In this document: positions 16,087 through 23,144 of the stretch, piece by piece
Layout of the letters: each line of letters opens with the position of its first letter
Numbering within the stretch: position 1 is the first letter of the stretch
Assembly: GCA_018648265.1 (NCBI GenBank)
Contig: JABGRN010000003.1
Location: 74,915 to 138,914, forward strand
Origin: Prolixibacteraceae bacterium
Lineage (GTDB): Bacteria; Bacteroidota; Bacteroidia; Bacteroidales; Prolixibacteraceae
Direction: 5' to 3'
DNA: 64,000 bases
Translations under genes and position numbers: made by a program
Notes under the pieces: generated by a model
What the model was told of the DNA's origin: nothing
The model's input: the letters and a program-made list of their open reading frames with translations, nothing else
Database searches by the model: none

Positions 16087-17877
16087 TTAGTAGCGTTTTC
16101 TTTTTGTGTATTTTGTGTGAAGTAAATGGTGCGACACTTCACCCAGTGGCTCTTTCAGGAAATCTTTGTATAATTTTATTACTTCCGGGTTTTGGTGCGA
16201 TTTCCGCATTGGCATTTCTCCATCTTCAGCATAAATTGCTTCAGCGCGTTTTTGCCTGATTTCTGCATTAGTAGGAATTGGTTGTCCACCACCACCGAGG
16301 CATCCACCCGGGCAACCCATAAATTCAATAAAATGATAGTCGGCTTTTCCAGCTTTTACAGCATCCATCACTTTTTTTGCATTAACTAATCCATGAGCAA
16401 CTGCACATTTTAATTCAACACCATCAAGAAAAGCCCATTCTTTTAGTGGTTTTTCAATTTTTATGGTGGCTTCTTTGATAACTTCCATACCACGAACAGG
16501 TTCAATATTAAGGTTTTCGAATGGCACGTCGCGCCCGGTCACAATTTCGTATGCAGTTCTGAGTGCCGCTTCCATTACACCTCCCGAAGCACCAAAGATT
16601 ACACCGGCTCCTGTCGATTCGCCCATTAATCGATCGTATTTTACAGGTTCTAGTTTATTAAAATCAAGCCCTGCCTGTTTAATAAGAATCGCAAGTTCAC
16701 GTGTTGTTAAAACATAGTCAACATCGCGATATCCACTGTCGTGCATTTCAGGTCGATAAGCTTCAAATTTTTTGGCTGTGCAAGGCATTATCGAAACTGA
16801 AACAATTTTTTCAGGTTCCAGGTTTCTTGCTTTTGCGTAATAGGTTTTAGCCAAAGCCCCAAACATTTGCTGTGGCGATTTGCACGAAGAAAGATAATCG
16901 AGAAATTCAGGATATAAATGTTCCATGTATTTAATCCATCCGGGAGAACAGGAAGTGGCCATTGGTAATTTTACATTTTTGTCTTTGTCAACCAGCGCGC
17001 TTTTCAGGCGCATAAGCAATTCTGTTCCTTCTTCAACAATAGTAAGGTCGGCAGTAAAGTCTGTATCAAGTACCGAATCGAAGCCAAGTCTTTTTAAGGC
17101 AGCGACCATTTGACCGGTTACCCTGGAACCAGGTTCAAGGCCTAATTCTTCGCCCAAACCAACCCTTACCGCCGGGGCTGTTTGAACAATAACATGTTTG
17201 TCGGGATTTGCAATAGCTTCCCAAACTTCCTCGATATAATTTTTTTCGACCAAAGCACCAGTTGGACAATGGTTTATACACTGGCCACAATTGGTGCAAA
17301 CCACATCGCGCAGTGCTTTTTCGAAAAATGTTGTAATTTTCATTTGATCGCCTTTATGCGCAACCGACAGAGCATTTACACCCTGTAATTCTGCACAAGT
17401 ACGGACGCAACGCTGGCAACGGATGCATTTGCTGTCGTCTTTAATAATTGACGGCGAAAACATGTCGATCGAGTAATTTTTTAATGGCACCAGTTCAATA
17501 AAATCCTGGGTCATTATTTTATAGTCGGAAGCAAGTTTTTGCAGTTCGCAATTGCCATTTCGGTAACATTTAGTGCAGTCGGCATTGTGTTCTGTCAGTA
17601 AAAGTTCGATAATATGTTTCCTCGAATTTCTTACTTTTAAACTGTTGGTGAGGATTTCCATGCCTTCTTCGCAAGGGGTTGCACAAGCAGCAGAAAGCCG
17701 GTTTTGCCCTTCAACTTCAACTACACAAACACGGCAGTTCCCTGCAACGCATAAGTCTTTGTGGTAACAAAGTGTTGGTATTGTAATGCCTTGTCCTTCG
17801 GCAGCTTCAAGTATCGTTTTACCCTTTTCTATCTCAACAGGAAATCCATTTATGGATATATTTAATTTATTTGCCAT
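16087..17877 (-). CDS. [FeFe] hydrogenase catalytic subunit (HydA/HndD type)
   Basis: A 596-residue iron-sulfur enzyme that interconverts protons and H2. The N-terminal [2Fe-2S] domain has CYHKDLCVAGNCRVC. A His-Cys3 [4Fe-4S] segment (HNADCTKCYRNGNC) and two ferredoxin clusters (CIRCQRCVRTC and CTNCGQCINHCPTG) follow. The H-cluster domain has all three signatures intact: TSCSPGW near residue 315, MPCTAKKFEA near 368 and FMGCPGGCLGGGGQP near 523. This is the modular M3 layout of trimeric NAD(P)-linked and electron-bifurcating enzymes. It is the last gene of a NuoE-NuoF-HydA operon, 21 bases after the NuoF-like gene. Maturation genes hydE, hydF and hydG are not in the window. Confidence 0.95.
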   Translation of the reverse strand: MANKLNISINGFPVEIEKGKTILEAAEGQGITIPTLCYHKDLCVAGNCRVCVVEVEGQNRLSAACATPCEEGMEILTNSLKVRNSRKHIIELLLTEHNADCTKCYRNGNCELQKLASDYKIMTQDFIELVPLKNYSIDMFSPSIIKDDSKCIRCQRCVRTCAELQGVNALSVAHKGDQMKITTFFEKALRDVVCTNCGQCINHCPTGALVEKNYIEEVWEAIANPDKHVIVQTAPAVRVGLGEELGLEPGSRVTGQMVAALKRLGFDSVLDTDFTADLTIVEEGTELLMRLKSALVDKDKNVKLPMATSCSPGWIKYMEHLYPEFLDYLSSCKSPQQMFGALAKTYYAKARNLEPEKIVSVSIMPCTAKKFEAYRPEMHDSGYRDVDYVLTTRELAILIKQAGLDFNKLEPVKYDRLMGESTGAGVIFGASGGVMEAALRTAYEIVTGRDVPFENLNIEPVRGMEVIKEATIKIEKPLKEWAFLDGVELKCAVAHGLVNAKKVMDAVKAGKADYHFIEFMGCPGGCLGGGGQPIPTNAEIRQKRAEAIYAEDGEMPMRKSHQNPEVIKLYKDFLKEPLGEVSHHLLHTKYTKRKRY

Positions 17878-17898
17878 TTTTTTAGTTTTATCGGTTTA

Positions 17899-19083
17899 TT
17901 AATAAATCATCTCTTCCCGGAAGTTTTCAACTATTGAAGAGAAGGAGTTTGCCACCGATTGGCCCAACCCACATTTTGCTGTTAATTGCATTGTCTCGGT
18001 CAATCGGATTAATTTATCGAGGTACGATGCAGGTTTTTCTCCACGTTTAACAGCTTTTATCCCCAAAAGCAGTTGCTGGCAACCTACCCGGCAAGGTGTA
18101 CATTGTCCGCAAGATTCTTCCCTGAAAAATTCGAGGTAGTTGTCGAGGACGTTGTACATTGAACGGGAACTGTTAAAAAGCATCATCGACCCACCGGTAG
18201 GTAATGAAATGCCTGAAAGTTTTCCTTTAAAGCCAATGGCAGCATCTTTAAAACTTTTACGGGGCACCAAAAAGCCAGACGCTCCCCCTACTTGTACAGA
18301 TTTAGTGTCACCGTCGCCAAATTCGTAAACAAAATCCTGAAGGCTCATTCCCAACTCCAATTCAAAAATCCCGGGTTTTGGGGTATCGCCCGATACTGAA
18401 AATAACTTGGTCCCCCTGGAATATTGCACTCCAAGATCGTAGAATTTTTTAGCTCCGAATTTGAAAATTGTAAACGTATGGACCAGTGTTTCCACATTGT
18501 TTATTACGGTCGGTTTGCCCAGATAACCTTTTTGTGTCGGGAAAGGTGGTTTGTTTCGGGGTTCTCCACGTCTTCCTTCCATCGACTCCATTAATGCTGT
18601 TTCTTCCCCGCAAATGTAAGCGCCACTACCCATAAAAATATTAATTTTGAAATCGAGTTTAATATCCTTACAATAATATTCGAATTCATTGATTGCTTTA
18701 TTTAATTCCGGTTCAAGGAATTTATATTCCCCCCTGAGGTAAATAAATCCTTCGGTTGCACCCGTAATATACCCACACACTGCCATTGCCGTAAGTACTT
18801 TATACGGAACTTTCGAGAGAATTTCGCGATCTTTGAATGTGCCGGGTTCACCTTCGTCGGCATTGCAAATAACATATTTTTGATCTGATTTTTCTTCTGC
18901 GGTATATTTCCATTTTAAACCTGTTGGAAAACCCGCACCTCCGCGTCCTTTTAGTTCCGAACTCATCAGTTCGTTGATCAATTCCTGTGGTTTCTTCTTT
19001 ATTGTGTTTGACAGTATTTTTTCCCAGTCATTATCGTTTCTGAAAATAAAATCTACCCTTTTTAGCTGATGTGAATTTGCCAT
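17899..19083 (-). CDS. NuoF-type NADH/FMN subunit of the [FeFe] hydrogenase, short form
   Basis: A 394-residue flavoprotein carrying FMN, the NAD(H) site and one [4Fe-4S] cluster. GRGGAGFPTGLKW near residue 47 is the FMN loop. GSGAYICGEETALMESMEG near residue 150 is the NADH loop. ESCGQCTPCRVGC near residue 334 plus a later Cys (TAKCGLGQ) bind the cluster. Hydrogenase subunits of this type (HydB/HndC) are usually about 600 residues, with an N-terminal thioredoxin-like [2Fe-2S] domain and a C-terminal two-cluster ferredoxin domain. Both are missing here, leaving only a complex I-sized core. It lies 11 bases after the NuoE-like gene, in the same operon. Confidence 0.93.
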   Translation of the reverse strand: MANSHQLKRVDFIFRNDNDWEKILSNTIKKKPQELINELMSSELKGRGGAGFPTGLKWKYTAEEKSDQKYVICNADEGEPGTFKDREILSKVPYKVLTAMAVCGYITGATEGFIYLRGEYKFLEPELNKAINEFEYYCKDIKLDFKINIFMGSGAYICGEETALMESMEGRRGEPRNKPPFPTQKGYLGKPTVINNVETLVHTFTIFKFGAKKFYDLGVQYSRGTKLFSVSGDTPKPGIFELELGMSLQDFVYEFGDGDTKSVQVGGASGFLVPRKSFKDAAIGFKGKLSGISLPTGGSMMLFNSSRSMYNVLDNYLEFFREESCGQCTPCRVGCQQLLLGIKAVKRGEKPASYLDKLIRLTETMQLTAKCGLGQSVANSFSSIVENFREEMIY

Positions 19084-19094
19084 AATTTCCTGTT

Positions 19095-19571
19095 TTATAT
19101 TTGCCCATTTTGTTTCATGTAACCCGATAGAATATCTCGTACTTTTTCAGGCGTCAGCTCTGTATATACTTCGTTGTTGATAAGCATTGCCGGAGCTTTG
19201 TGACACCATCCAAGACAATTGGATTCCAGAAGTGAAAAACGATTGTCAGGTGTTGTTTCGCCAAGTTTGATTTTTAACATGTCTTGTATGGCAAACATCA
19301 TTTGGGTTTTTCCTTTCATTGCACAGGTAATGGTTTTGCATACCCGAATAATGTACTTCCCGGTTGGTTTTGTTTCGAGGAAAGAATAAAAGGTTGCAGT
19401 ACCGTAAACTTCGGAAGCCGGAATATCTACTTCGCGTGCAATTTCTATCATTGAATATTCCGATAGATAGTTTTCGCGTTCTACTACTCCTTGTAAAATA
19501 GGCAGCAGGCTTTCTCTTCTCCTTCCGTATTCGTCGGCTAAGTCTTTAATTAAAGATTGAATAGAATCCAT
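19095..19571 (-). CDS. NuoE-type [2Fe-2S] subunit of the [FeFe] hydrogenase
   Basis: A 158-residue thioredoxin-like protein that carries one [2Fe-2S] cluster and passes electrons between the flavin subunit and the hydrogenase. The four ligands are visible as RVCKTITC near residue 83 and ESNCLGWCHKAP near residue 124. The N-terminal helices (LLPILQGVVERENYLS, VDIPASEVYGTATFYSF) are those of NuoE, HydC and HndA. It is the first gene of the minus-strand operon. Two dyad sequences in the upstream gap may be control sites. Confidence 0.94.
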   Translation of the reverse strand: MDSIQSLIKDLADEYGRRRESLLPILQGVVERENYLSEYSMIEIAREVDIPASEVYGTATFYSFLETKPTGKYIIRVCKTITCAMKGKTQMMFAIQDMLKIKLGETTPDNRFSLLESNCLGWCHKAPAMLINNEVYTELTPEKVRDILSGYMKQNGQI

Positions 19572-20400: not shown

Positions 20401-22044
20401 TTATTTTACAATAACATCTTCAATAATTTTTCCCTGGCATTTATCAGGTACAGGAATCTCTAAAAGTTCAGATAAGGTAGGTGCCAAATCGATTGCATTG
20501 TACTTCCCGTTTATTCTTTTCGGTTCAATTTGTGCCCCGTAAAATACTAAAGGAATATGTGATTGATCGGTATAATTTACTTTTTTAAATTTATATGTGG
20601 GCTGCCAACCTTCTTTTAATAGGTACAGAAAATCGCCCGAACGGTTTTTTGCATACGATTTATAAATTGGCGAGAGCAAACCGTTTGCCGAGCTTCCCTG
20701 CTCCAGTTGGTACGAGGGCATCGATAGTTGAACACCTTCGAATTGGTTAATAAAATTTGAAGTAACATCGCGCATTTCGTTCAAATCCAGATTATTTTTA
20801 TCGATAAGTTCGTGGTTAAGGTAAACCTGTAAATCGTTGTAATGTTCTATCCATTTTTCTTCGCCATAAGTAATATTTAAGAACGAAGTAAGTAGTGCTA
20901 TTGCACTTTCGATATTAAAATTATCAACCGGTAAATTAAATTCTTCTTTCAAATAATCAACCGGATAAGATGCCGAAGTATTGGCAGTTAAAAAGAAAAG
21001 CACATTTTCTTTACCAAATTTATTTTCAGCAAAATCAATTAACTGGCCAATATATTGGTCGAGATATAAATAAGTATCTTCCATTTCGAGCGAAGCCGGC
21101 CCAAACGAGCCATTTTCGTAATCCATCGAAGAAAATACTGTCGTTACAAAATCGGTAATTTCGTCGGTGCCAATTTCTTCGTTTTCAAGTATCTCAATCG
21201 CAAATTTCTGGACCATTAAATTTGCAGATGGTGTGGTTTTAAATGGCCTGAAATCTTTGGTCCGTTTTATATACCTGCTTATATTATGTGGAAAAGTATT
21301 CCATTTATCGAAATAACCTTTTTCTAAAAGATAGTCATCTTCCAGGCTTTCGTTGTAGGTTGTTTCGGGTAATAAGGTTGTCCAGTTTCGGTAACTATAA
21401 ATTTCGGCGTAGTTTTCGCTGTTAAAATTCCGTACCCAGTCGGGGAAAGTGCTTACATAAAACGAACTAGAAATCATTCGCCCCGATTCTACGTCGAACC
21501 AGTACGCGCCGTCGGCAGAATGTCCGGCAGCAAAAATAGCCGATTCCCGGTTTAAGGCCGCACTAAAAACTTTGGCTTTTCCGAGAGTAAATATTTTTAG
21601 GTTGTCGGTAATAGTATTCGAAAGAAGTTTAACCGGCGAAGCATTTCCGGCTTTGGTATCGGCACCCACTGTAAAATAGTAATTGTCGTCAGTGCATTCT
21701 AATTCTTTTTGTTTCAGACGGTCGTACCAGGTTTTGTCAATTATCCCGTGAATTGAAGGATTAACGCCGGTAAAAAGTGTTGCTGTTCCGCTTGCATAAT
21801 TTTGAACATGTTGGGTAATGTTTACATTGGTGCAAACAGCTCCGTTCGAATATAGTTTTTTGAATCCGTTTGGCTGAAATTTATCCCAAAATCGTTGAAT
21901 ATAATCGGGGCGCATATTTTCAACAACAATCCCAATAACAACTTTGGGTTTATTGGTTTGTTTTTCTTTGTTACGTTGTGCTGAAACTGAGTTCGAAAAA
22001 ATGAACACAAAAATTAGTGATAATATAAAAATGCCTTCCCTCAT
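20401..22044 (-). CDS. Alkaline phosphatase-superfamily protein (PafA-like), probably catalytically inactive
   Basis: A 547-residue exported protein, started at the ATG at 22044 that gives the signal peptide MREGIFILSLIFVFIFSNSVSA. The fold is clearly that of PafA/NPP phosphatases: VVENMRPDY, TLFTGVNPSIHGI, TWYDR and SHIPLVFYGAQI. Aligned by eye to PafA-type enzymes, the key positions differ. The first metal Asp is Glu42. The nucleophile Thr is Tyr83 (NYASGTA). The DYxGHxFGP motif is DYENGSFGP, so its metal His is lost. The ADHG metal pair is ANTS. Only one Asp and the late His remain. A binding or scaffold role is inferred; another chemistry is possible. No frameshift or stop is present, so it appears to be maintained. 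Confidence 0.85.
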   Translation of the reverse strand: MREGIFILSLIFVFIFSNSVSAQRNKEKQTNKPKVVIGIVVENMRPDYIQRFWDKFQPNGFKKLYSNGAVCTNVNITQHVQNYASGTATLFTGVNPSIHGIIDKTWYDRLKQKELECTDDNYYFTVGADTKAGNASPVKLLSNTITDNLKIFTLGKAKVFSAALNRESAIFAAGHSADGAYWFDVESGRMISSSFYVSTFPDWVRNFNSENYAEIYSYRNWTTLLPETTYNESLEDDYLLEKGYFDKWNTFPHNISRYIKRTKDFRPFKTTPSANLMVQKFAIEILENEEIGTDEITDFVTTVFSSMDYENGSFGPASLEMEDTYLYLDQYIGQLIDFAENKFGKENVLFFLTANTSASYPVDYLKEEFNLPVDNFNIESAIALLTSFLNITYGEEKWIEHYNDLQVYLNHELIDKNNLDLNEMRDVTSNFINQFEGVQLSMPSYQLEQGSSANGLLSPIYKSYAKNRSGDFLYLLKEGWQPTYKFKKVNYTDQSHIPLVFYGAQIEPKRINGKYNAIDLAPTLSELLEIPVPDKCQGKIIEDVIVK

Positions 22045-22259: not shown

Positions 22260-23144
22260 ATGAAAAGAATTTTTGGATTTACATTAATTATTTTAGGAAT
22301 TTCACTTTTTTCTTGTCAGACAGAAAAAATTGATTTGGGAAACGATGAGGCTTTGTCGGAAAAGGCAGCGCAGATTACTTTAACCGAAGTCGCATTAGAA
22401 AGTGCAGCAACAGAAATTGAATACGAAGTTGATTTTTATGCAAATGCCGAATTAATTTTAACCAATTTATGGAAGATGGGAAAGCATTTCCGTTGGACCA
22501 CCAATCTTCGTTATAAATTCGAGCAATGCCCCGATATTCACATTGAGAGTGAAGAAGGTGGTTATCCAAAAACAATTACCCTGGATTACGGCGACAGCAC
22601 AGTTTTGAGAACTGGCAGGGTGTTAAGTGGGGTAATTACTGTTGAGATTTCAGGGCCGCGTTTTAGTCCAGATTATAACAGGATGGTTACCTACACAGAT
22701 TTTGGTGTAGATTCATTATTGATCAACGGAAATTCTCTTGTTACATTCGATAAAGATGAGGATGTTTTCCGTACAATAACAAGCGATTTTAGCTTTTTAC
22801 TTGCTAATGGAATGACAGTCGATCGGACGTCTGAAAGAGTTTGGGAATGGATTGAAGGGATGGAAACTGAGGAAGATCAAAATGATGACGTGATACAGAT
22901 AACAGGTTTTTCAAATGCCGAGACTTCGGAAGGTGATGTTTACAGGAAAGAAATTGTAGAACCCTTGATTCGTATGCGCGACTGCCATTTTATTGTTCAG
23001 GGAATAGTTGAAATTACTTTAAACGGAGAATTGATTTCATCGCTGGATTACGGTAATGGAGATTGCAACAATATTGCAATTCTAACAAAAGATGGCGAGA
23101 CATACGAAGTTGACCTGGCGAAAAGAGATGTAAAAAAGCCATAA
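22260..23144 (+). CDS. Putative lipoprotein of unknown function
   Basis: A 294-residue protein with a lipoprotein signal: MKRIFGFTLIILGISLFSC, Cys at residue 19 followed by polar residues. The mature part appears beta-rich. It has two related segments with an aromatic-Gly turn, ITLDYGDST near residue 101 and SLDYGNGDC near 257, each followed by a strand ending in hydrophobic residues. Similar orphan lipoproteins occur in Bacteroidota, but I assign no function. It precedes an ECF sigma gene on the same strand, from which it is separated by a terminator, so a functional link is not shown. Confidence 0.75.
   Translation: MKRIFGFTLIILGISLFSCQTEKIDLGNDEALSEKAAQITLTEVALESAATEIEYEVDFYANAELILTNLWKMGKHFRWTTNLRYKFEQCPDIHIESEEGGYPKTITLDYGDSTVLRTGRVLSGVITVEISGPRFSPDYNRMVTYTDFGVDSLLINGNSLVTFDKDEDVFRTITSDFSFLLANGMTVDRTSERVWEWIEGMETEEDQNDDVIQITGFSNAETSEGDVYRKEIVEPLIRMRDCHFIVQGIVEITLNGELISSLDYGNGDCNNIAILTKDGETYEVDLAKRDVKKP

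Follow-up and report, generated by a model that had tools for sequence, protein, structure and literature searches.

A PafA-like gene of Prolixibacteraceae with an eroded active site and a conserved predicted fold: a candidate envelope pseudophosphatase

What does selection preserve in an alkaline phosphatase homologue whose active site has been rewritten? The question is raised by a single gene in a 64,000-nucleotide stretch of contig JABGRN010000003.1 from a Prolixibacteraceae bacterium (hereafter the window). Working from the letters of the DNA, the original prediction had described a full-length, intact, PafA-like frame with its active site largely replaced and had proposed a maintained pseudoenzyme. 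The minus-strand frame is intact from its ATG at 22044 and encodes 547 residues with a hydrophobic N-terminus, and the protein is probably exported. The gene and its putative signal are located as follows:

20401..22044, minus strand: pseudo-PafA gene, encoding a 547-aa alkaline-phosphatase-fold protein with an export-type N-terminus and a degenerate active site
21979..22044, minus strand: putative N-terminal export signal (residues 1-22), a hydrophobic stretch in the sequence whose signal type is presumed

The homology to PafA runs nearly from end to end. A phmmer comparison of the window protein with PafA 5tj3 gave an E-value of 1.1e-86 across residues 25-545, Pfam PF01663 matched at 99.4 bits, and the NCBIfam PafA model NF042991 matched residues 8-545 at 477.3 bits, short of its equivalog cut-off of 650. 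This is the single full PafA-type match in the window genome, the two further matches there being short, with low scores of 25.8 and 20.3 bits. An AlphaFold2 model of the protein was obtained with a pLDDT of 94.3, residues 1-21 falling below 50, and Foldseek returned PafA as its top match (TM 0.87/0.92, rmsd 2.6, 33% identity), so that the superposition proposed as a check came out in favour of the PafA fold. Near full-length homology and the predicted fold together place the protein in the alkaline phosphatase superfamily, with the PafA/NPP fold. A protein from a distant branch (L188) is also predicted to adopt the PafA fold (pLDDT 90.3, TM 0.88/0.85).

The window protein thus shares with PafA (5tj3 and 5too, which we take to be from Elizabethkingia meningoseptica) its length, predicted fold and export-type N-terminus, and differs from it in the active site, in the score against NF042991 and in the conservation of a branch-specific segment. 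Sphingomonas SPAP/PhoK (3q3q, 5xwi, 5xwk) has the superfamily fold as well (TM 0.73-0.80), but these structures were solved as phosphatases, according to their entry titles, and are only 20-21% identical to the window protein. Enzymes of the PF01663 family (type I phosphodiesterase/nucleotide pyrophosphatase, ENPPs) rely on a nucleophilic Thr and a pair of metals, both of which the window protein lacks. The superfamily fold is also used outside nutrient phosphatase chemistry by PorX, although PorX is a cytoplasmic response regulator of the type IX secretion system (T9SS) with an alkaline-phosphatase-superfamily domain.

Alignment to PafA upheld all four active-site changes that had been called, namely Glu42, Tyr83, Gly at the His of DYxGH and Asn-Thr at the ADHG pair. 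The statement that the active site is largely replaced held, but the changes at contacts N100, K162 and R164 and at H486 had been overlooked. We examined 11 positions, ten catalytic ones and H83, the latter taken from the alignment; the PafA residue numbers are those we take to be in use, and the ten catalytic ones all matched the expected letter in the sequence. Ten of the 11 are replaced in the window protein, and D305 alone of the six metal ligands is kept. The correspondences, with counts among the 40 sequences at at least 60% identity, are:

21919..21921, minus strand: E42, at metal ligand D38 of PafA (E in 40/40)
21796..21798, minus strand: Y83, at the nucleophile T79 (Y in 40/40, and in 40/57 at at least 45% identity)
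21784..21786, minus strand: T87, at H83 (T in 37/40)
21733..21735, minus strand: K104, at phosphate contact N100 (variable among close relatives: N 20, K 17 and T 2 listed of 40)
21544..21552, minus strand: N165 and E167, at phosphate contacts K162 and R164 (N in 40/40, E in 37/40)
21121..21123, minus strand: D308, at D305, the sole retained metal ligand (D in 40/40)
21109..21111, minus strand: G312, at metal ligand H309 (G in 32/40)
20977..20982, minus strand: N355-T356, at the metal pair D352-H353 (N in 40/40, T in 37/40)
20584..20586, minus strand: K487, at metal ligand H486 (K in 37/40)

E42, Y83, N165, D308 and N355 are invariant in this set, and the counts were the same whether the 40 sequences were chosen by two active-site letters or by identity. 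The PafA equivalog, an active Pi-insensitive phosphatase, requires the Thr nucleophile, six metal ligands and the phosphate contacts, and of all these the window protein retains a single metal ligand. Two-zinc phosphoryl transfer should not run on such a site, and we infer that the protein is inactive as a phosphatase. The motif SHIPLVFYG, which had been used as a landmark, does not carry the ligand His, since that of PafA sits in THSVW; the His of SHIPL was tried as the equivalent of H486 and rejected, because a different column, that of the THSVW His, is the one invariant in intact enzymes.

The erosion is concentrated in the catalytic columns. In alignment A1, which left out one degenerate row (L182) and 25 of the 44 intact rows, 14 columns were at least 95% conserved in the 19 intact rows and below 60% in the 112 degenerate rows. 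Nine of these belong to the 11 active-site positions; the other five are N43, Q78, F171, S233 and N311, some of which adjoin active-site positions. The alignments of degenerate sequences yielded no replacement nucleophile or metal set.

Orthologues from other genomes carry the same active-site letters, which argues against chance or a local error. Overall, we aligned 225 frames from 226 loci, L002 and L003 being without a full homologue; the intact but split gene L142, which gave two rows, was dropped, and 151 rows, including the window protein, were degenerate, 141 of them non-redundant. Within the window family, Prolixibacteraceae, 135 of 140 genomes had a match, and all 76 main-locus rows read (67 distinct), comprising the window's own gene and genes from two collections, were degenerate, in keeping with the expectation that orthologues share the substitutions. 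Draconibacterium orientale FH5T, D. sediminis, D. mangrovi and Mangrovibacterium lignilyticum carry this form. A second PafA-like copy was read in 8/140 family genomes (L135-L142) and is intact; one of these copies, from a draft genome, has its intact residues divided between two frames (L142:5847-7578, plus strand).

The picture widens at the level of the GTDB order, which we take to be Bacteroidales (NCBI puts the family in Marinilabiliales). The PafA model matched 179 of 296 genomes of the order at 1e-40; the 117 without a match indicate that a PafA-like gene is not universal there. Degenerate sequences made up 74 of the 90 order rows read and intact ones 16, the rows being a non-random set of 88 genes (L047 and L058 recur as L204 and L206) made up of the 30 best-scoring and 60 chosen ones. 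A phylum-wide draw matched 135 of 295 genomes, and none of the 50 rows read from it, again non-random (the 30 best-scoring and 20 weaker ones), was degenerate. Counting intact and degenerate matches alike, a PafA-like gene was present in every sampled genome of 54 of the 96 families, in none for 36 and in some for 6; many of the families are represented by a single genome.

The window gene stands alone, convergent with a gene for a 132-aa CarboxypepD_reg protein. Among relatives, several neighbours are common to intact and degenerate genes and support one orthologous locus over a stray duplicate. A CrcB-like gene lies upstream of intact L228 and of degenerate L159, L236 and L243, and a subtilase-like gene downstream of intact L229 and L230, which are near-identical sisters, and of degenerate L181, L238, L239 and L242 (Pfam checked for L228, L236, L229 and L242). 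A CYTH-type gene, its domain read on L113, is found directly upstream of pseudo-PafA in seven loci (L113, L117, L120, L121, L126, L129, L146) and directly downstream of intact PafA in L217. The upstream gene in other branches is a YchF-like GTPase (by reading) or an M14 peptidase. At 13 of 152 flanked loci (L188, L191-L200, L202, L203) an Lnb-type membrane gene, pseudo-PafA and SecA follow each other on one strand, with the Lnb_N/5TMH_Lnb and SecA domains read on L188; one more locus has the Lnb-type gene without SecA, which brings the Lnb-type neighbours to 14/152.

Lnb_N (DUF4105) was considered as an obligatory partner and rejected: its co-occurrence is strong over genomes but tracks families, and it gave no match in the window genome. 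Both matches were found in 129 genomes, the PafA-like one only in 50, Lnb_N only in 25 and neither in 92; Lnb_N occurs in 41 of the 54 families with a PafA-like match throughout, in 9 of the 36 with none, and in every sampled member of 5 of the 6 families in which the PafA-like match varies. The Lnb_N/SecA adjacency thus appears to be a trait of one branch, and its 13 loci are suggestive only as a functional link to SecA.

Two other features of the surroundings were recorded. In the window, NuoE-, NuoF- and HydA-like genes (names by reading) stand in a row at 16087-19571 on the minus strand, with synteny in relatives, which suggests a trimeric [FeFe]-hydrogenase. A lipoprotein-like gene at 22260-23144 on the plus strand, without a Pfam match at 1e-5, adjoins pseudo-PafA in eight relatives (L036-L041, L046, L145).

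How the active site was lost can be followed in part from what remains of it. Among the 141 non-redundant degenerate sequences, none of the six metal ligands is kept in 2, one in 96, two in 31, three in 7, four in 5, and five or six in none. The whole Zn1 triad persists in 5/141 and the whole Zn2 triad in 1/141, and 48/141 carry Thr or Ser where the nucleophile belongs, so that some relatives may still bind metal or react. Every one of the 11 active-site residues persists somewhere in the set, in 6 or more sequences and in different lineages, from which it follows that the common ancestor kept most of them, unless there were many reversions. This pattern suggests that the erosion was lineage-specific and proceeded separately in different lineages.

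The trees disagree on whether catalysis failed once or repeatedly. In a tree of 158 rows, reduced from 223 by removing near-copies and rows shorter than 400 aa, the degenerate rows lie on one side of a branch with a support of only 56; one row listing lacks two rows shorter than 480 aa or two named references. A quick tree of 73 hand-picked rows, with the active-site columns masked, placed intact rows inside degenerate ones and needed three changes, but a tree holding the degenerate rows as one clade reached a higher likelihood, and the AU test did not reject it (p 0.652). A branch with a support of 99 separates an order clade of 50 degenerate and six intact rows from 17 other intact rows; some of the latter come from the order (L047, L048, L052, L057, L058), so that a second, canonical PafA type exists there.

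The gene family is under strong constraint. The Nei-Gojobori dN/dS of 40 close relatives, a measure that had been named as a check on the reading, had a median of 0.035 (range 0.013-0.068), strongly purifying, over the 45 of 780 pairs with usable dS (0.05-1.2), which are not mutually independent; the window gene is absent from the 12 lowest-dS pairs listed, and the value speaks for the clade. G60, G68, G93, G100, G174, W221 and E320 are invariant in a 131-row alignment. Mean column conservation is 0.531 in degenerate (n=141) and 0.539 in intact sequences (n=74, 72 distinct, PafA included), while the 11 active-site columns fall from 0.999 in intact to 0.407 in degenerate sequences.

One part of the protein seems to have gained constraint, namely:

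20725..20925, minus strand: residues 374-440, a newly conserved segment of this branch, from the comparison of conservation in degenerate and intact sequences

Residues 374-440 are 0.88 bits tighter in the degenerate (113 rows) than in the intact sequences (45 rows), whereas the rest is 0.11 bits looser, at similar mean pairwise identity in the two sets (0.373 and 0.381, respectively). No other contiguous stretch of equal length was as extreme, the segment having been picked after the conservation tables were seen. Tightened columns include F376, L384, L385, W398, F431 and G437, with G243 elsewhere; within the segment they are mostly hydrophobic or Gly, and the segment may be a re-packed core rather than an interface. 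Measured against the degenerate consensus over residues 360-445, the six intact clade members score 0.87-0.97, whereas the 41 other intact rows average 0.35 (highest 0.71), and canonical rows may be misaligned here. In the remaining conserved columns the same comparison gives 0.86-0.89 for the six and 0.70 for the other intact rows. As the intact clade members share the constraint, it is seemingly a clade trait older than the catalytic loss.

Taking into consideration that the fold is kept in the predicted structure, that the catalytic residues are lost, that selection is purifying and that orthologues share the loss, we regard the window protein with high confidence as a pseudoenzyme, and the maintained state that had been proposed is borne out by these observations. 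As to what it does, the reading we consider the probable one, from the alignments and the models, is that of a retained envelope pseudophosphatase which is non-catalytic and would bind or scaffold in the cell envelope through the 360-445 segment. The PafA orthologue of the order would have turned pseudoenzyme; selection would hold the fold together with the branch-specific segment (about 360-445), the useful activity would most likely be non-catalytic, and the old pocket would have been re-packed lineage by lineage. In the window's genus the pocket may be held by polar side chains that replace zinc, for example K487 near D308. A functional role for the segment taken by itself is proposed tentatively, with somewhat less than even confidence, and any named partner would deserve less still. 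Because the new constraint is present in intact clade members, a second role was probably acquired before catalysis was lost and rendered it dispensable. A fuller history, in which the ancestral enzyme gained an envelope role via residues 360-445, separate stepwise erosion then produced a widespread core pseudophosphatase, and the Lnb-SecA branch was perhaps drawn into export or envelope assembly, is speculative and, taken whole, rather unlikely.

The old pocket could instead bind a phosphorylated ligand such as a phosphoglycan, lipid A or a nucleotide without hydrolysing it. The stability of the pocket letters among close relatives and the basic K104 and K487 of the window gene agree with this, but the N100, K162 and R164 contacts are replaced, R164 by Glu in the window gene, and K104 varies even among close relatives. 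As the letters of the pocket change from lineage to lineage, a single small ligand in common is not to be expected across the order, though it is possible within the genus, and we judge such binding unlikely as the general explanation. Somewhat less probable again is that the rewritten pocket (E42, Y83, N165, E167, D308, N355, T356, K487) catalyses a different reaction, either without metal or with a single one. At at least 60% identity (n=40) the pocket columns average 0.909 against 0.792 overall, a level reached by 2.75% of random 11-column sets, but this excess fades with wider relatives, the share of random sets rising to 9.8% at 50% identity and to 22% at 45%, and order-wide the pocket columns rank with the more variable ones (0.407 against an overall 0.531). 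The most tightened columns, mainly Gly, Leu, Phe and Trp, are moreover no catalytic set.

That the protein belongs to the type IX secretion or gliding machinery is very improbable. Some loci lie near GldD/GldE-like genes (by reading) and L244 adjoins an M14 peptidase with a T9SS sorting tail, but a PafA-like match, intact or degenerate alike, is found in 169/279 SprA-positive and 10/17 SprA-negative genomes (odds ratio 1.08, Fisher p 1.0); occurrence is not tied to SprA, and we rejected the link. A decaying gene heading for loss, which the lost catalytic residues and the order genomes without a match might suggest, is scarcely credible given the low dN/dS, the invariant scaffold columns, an inside stop in only one among the family matches listed and a presence that follows families.

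A retained pseudophosphatase would bear on how PafA homologues are counted. PafA is a major, constitutive phosphatase of Bacteroidota, as stated in the parts covered of two papers (PMC8812569; PMC8115612). One of them, a 2022 survey, kept only sequences with key residues before building its tree, retaining 423 isolate ORFs with an isolate bank of n = 468 (genomes or ORFs), and found gut PafA to cluster with Bacteroidales; the same parts do not describe the excluded key-residue variants as a group (PMC8812569). Searches of the open-licence PMC literature listed no description of a degenerate PafA branch. Two degenerate proteins, L060 and L061, score 653.6 and 650.0 bits as whole frames against the NCBIfam cut-off of 650, and 646.9 and 643.4 bits when cut to the mature part. 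As they reach the equivalog cut-off, automatic naming may call dead homologues PafA.

PafA homologue counts serve to infer phosphorus cycling, and most of the PafA-like genes read in the order (74/90) are unlikely to be the PafA enzyme. With the fold constant, the active sites of this set range by degrees from intact to wholly eroded, which makes it a natural system for studying how a phosphatase scaffold is used once it no longer catalyses, and whether a new role arises before the old one is lost.
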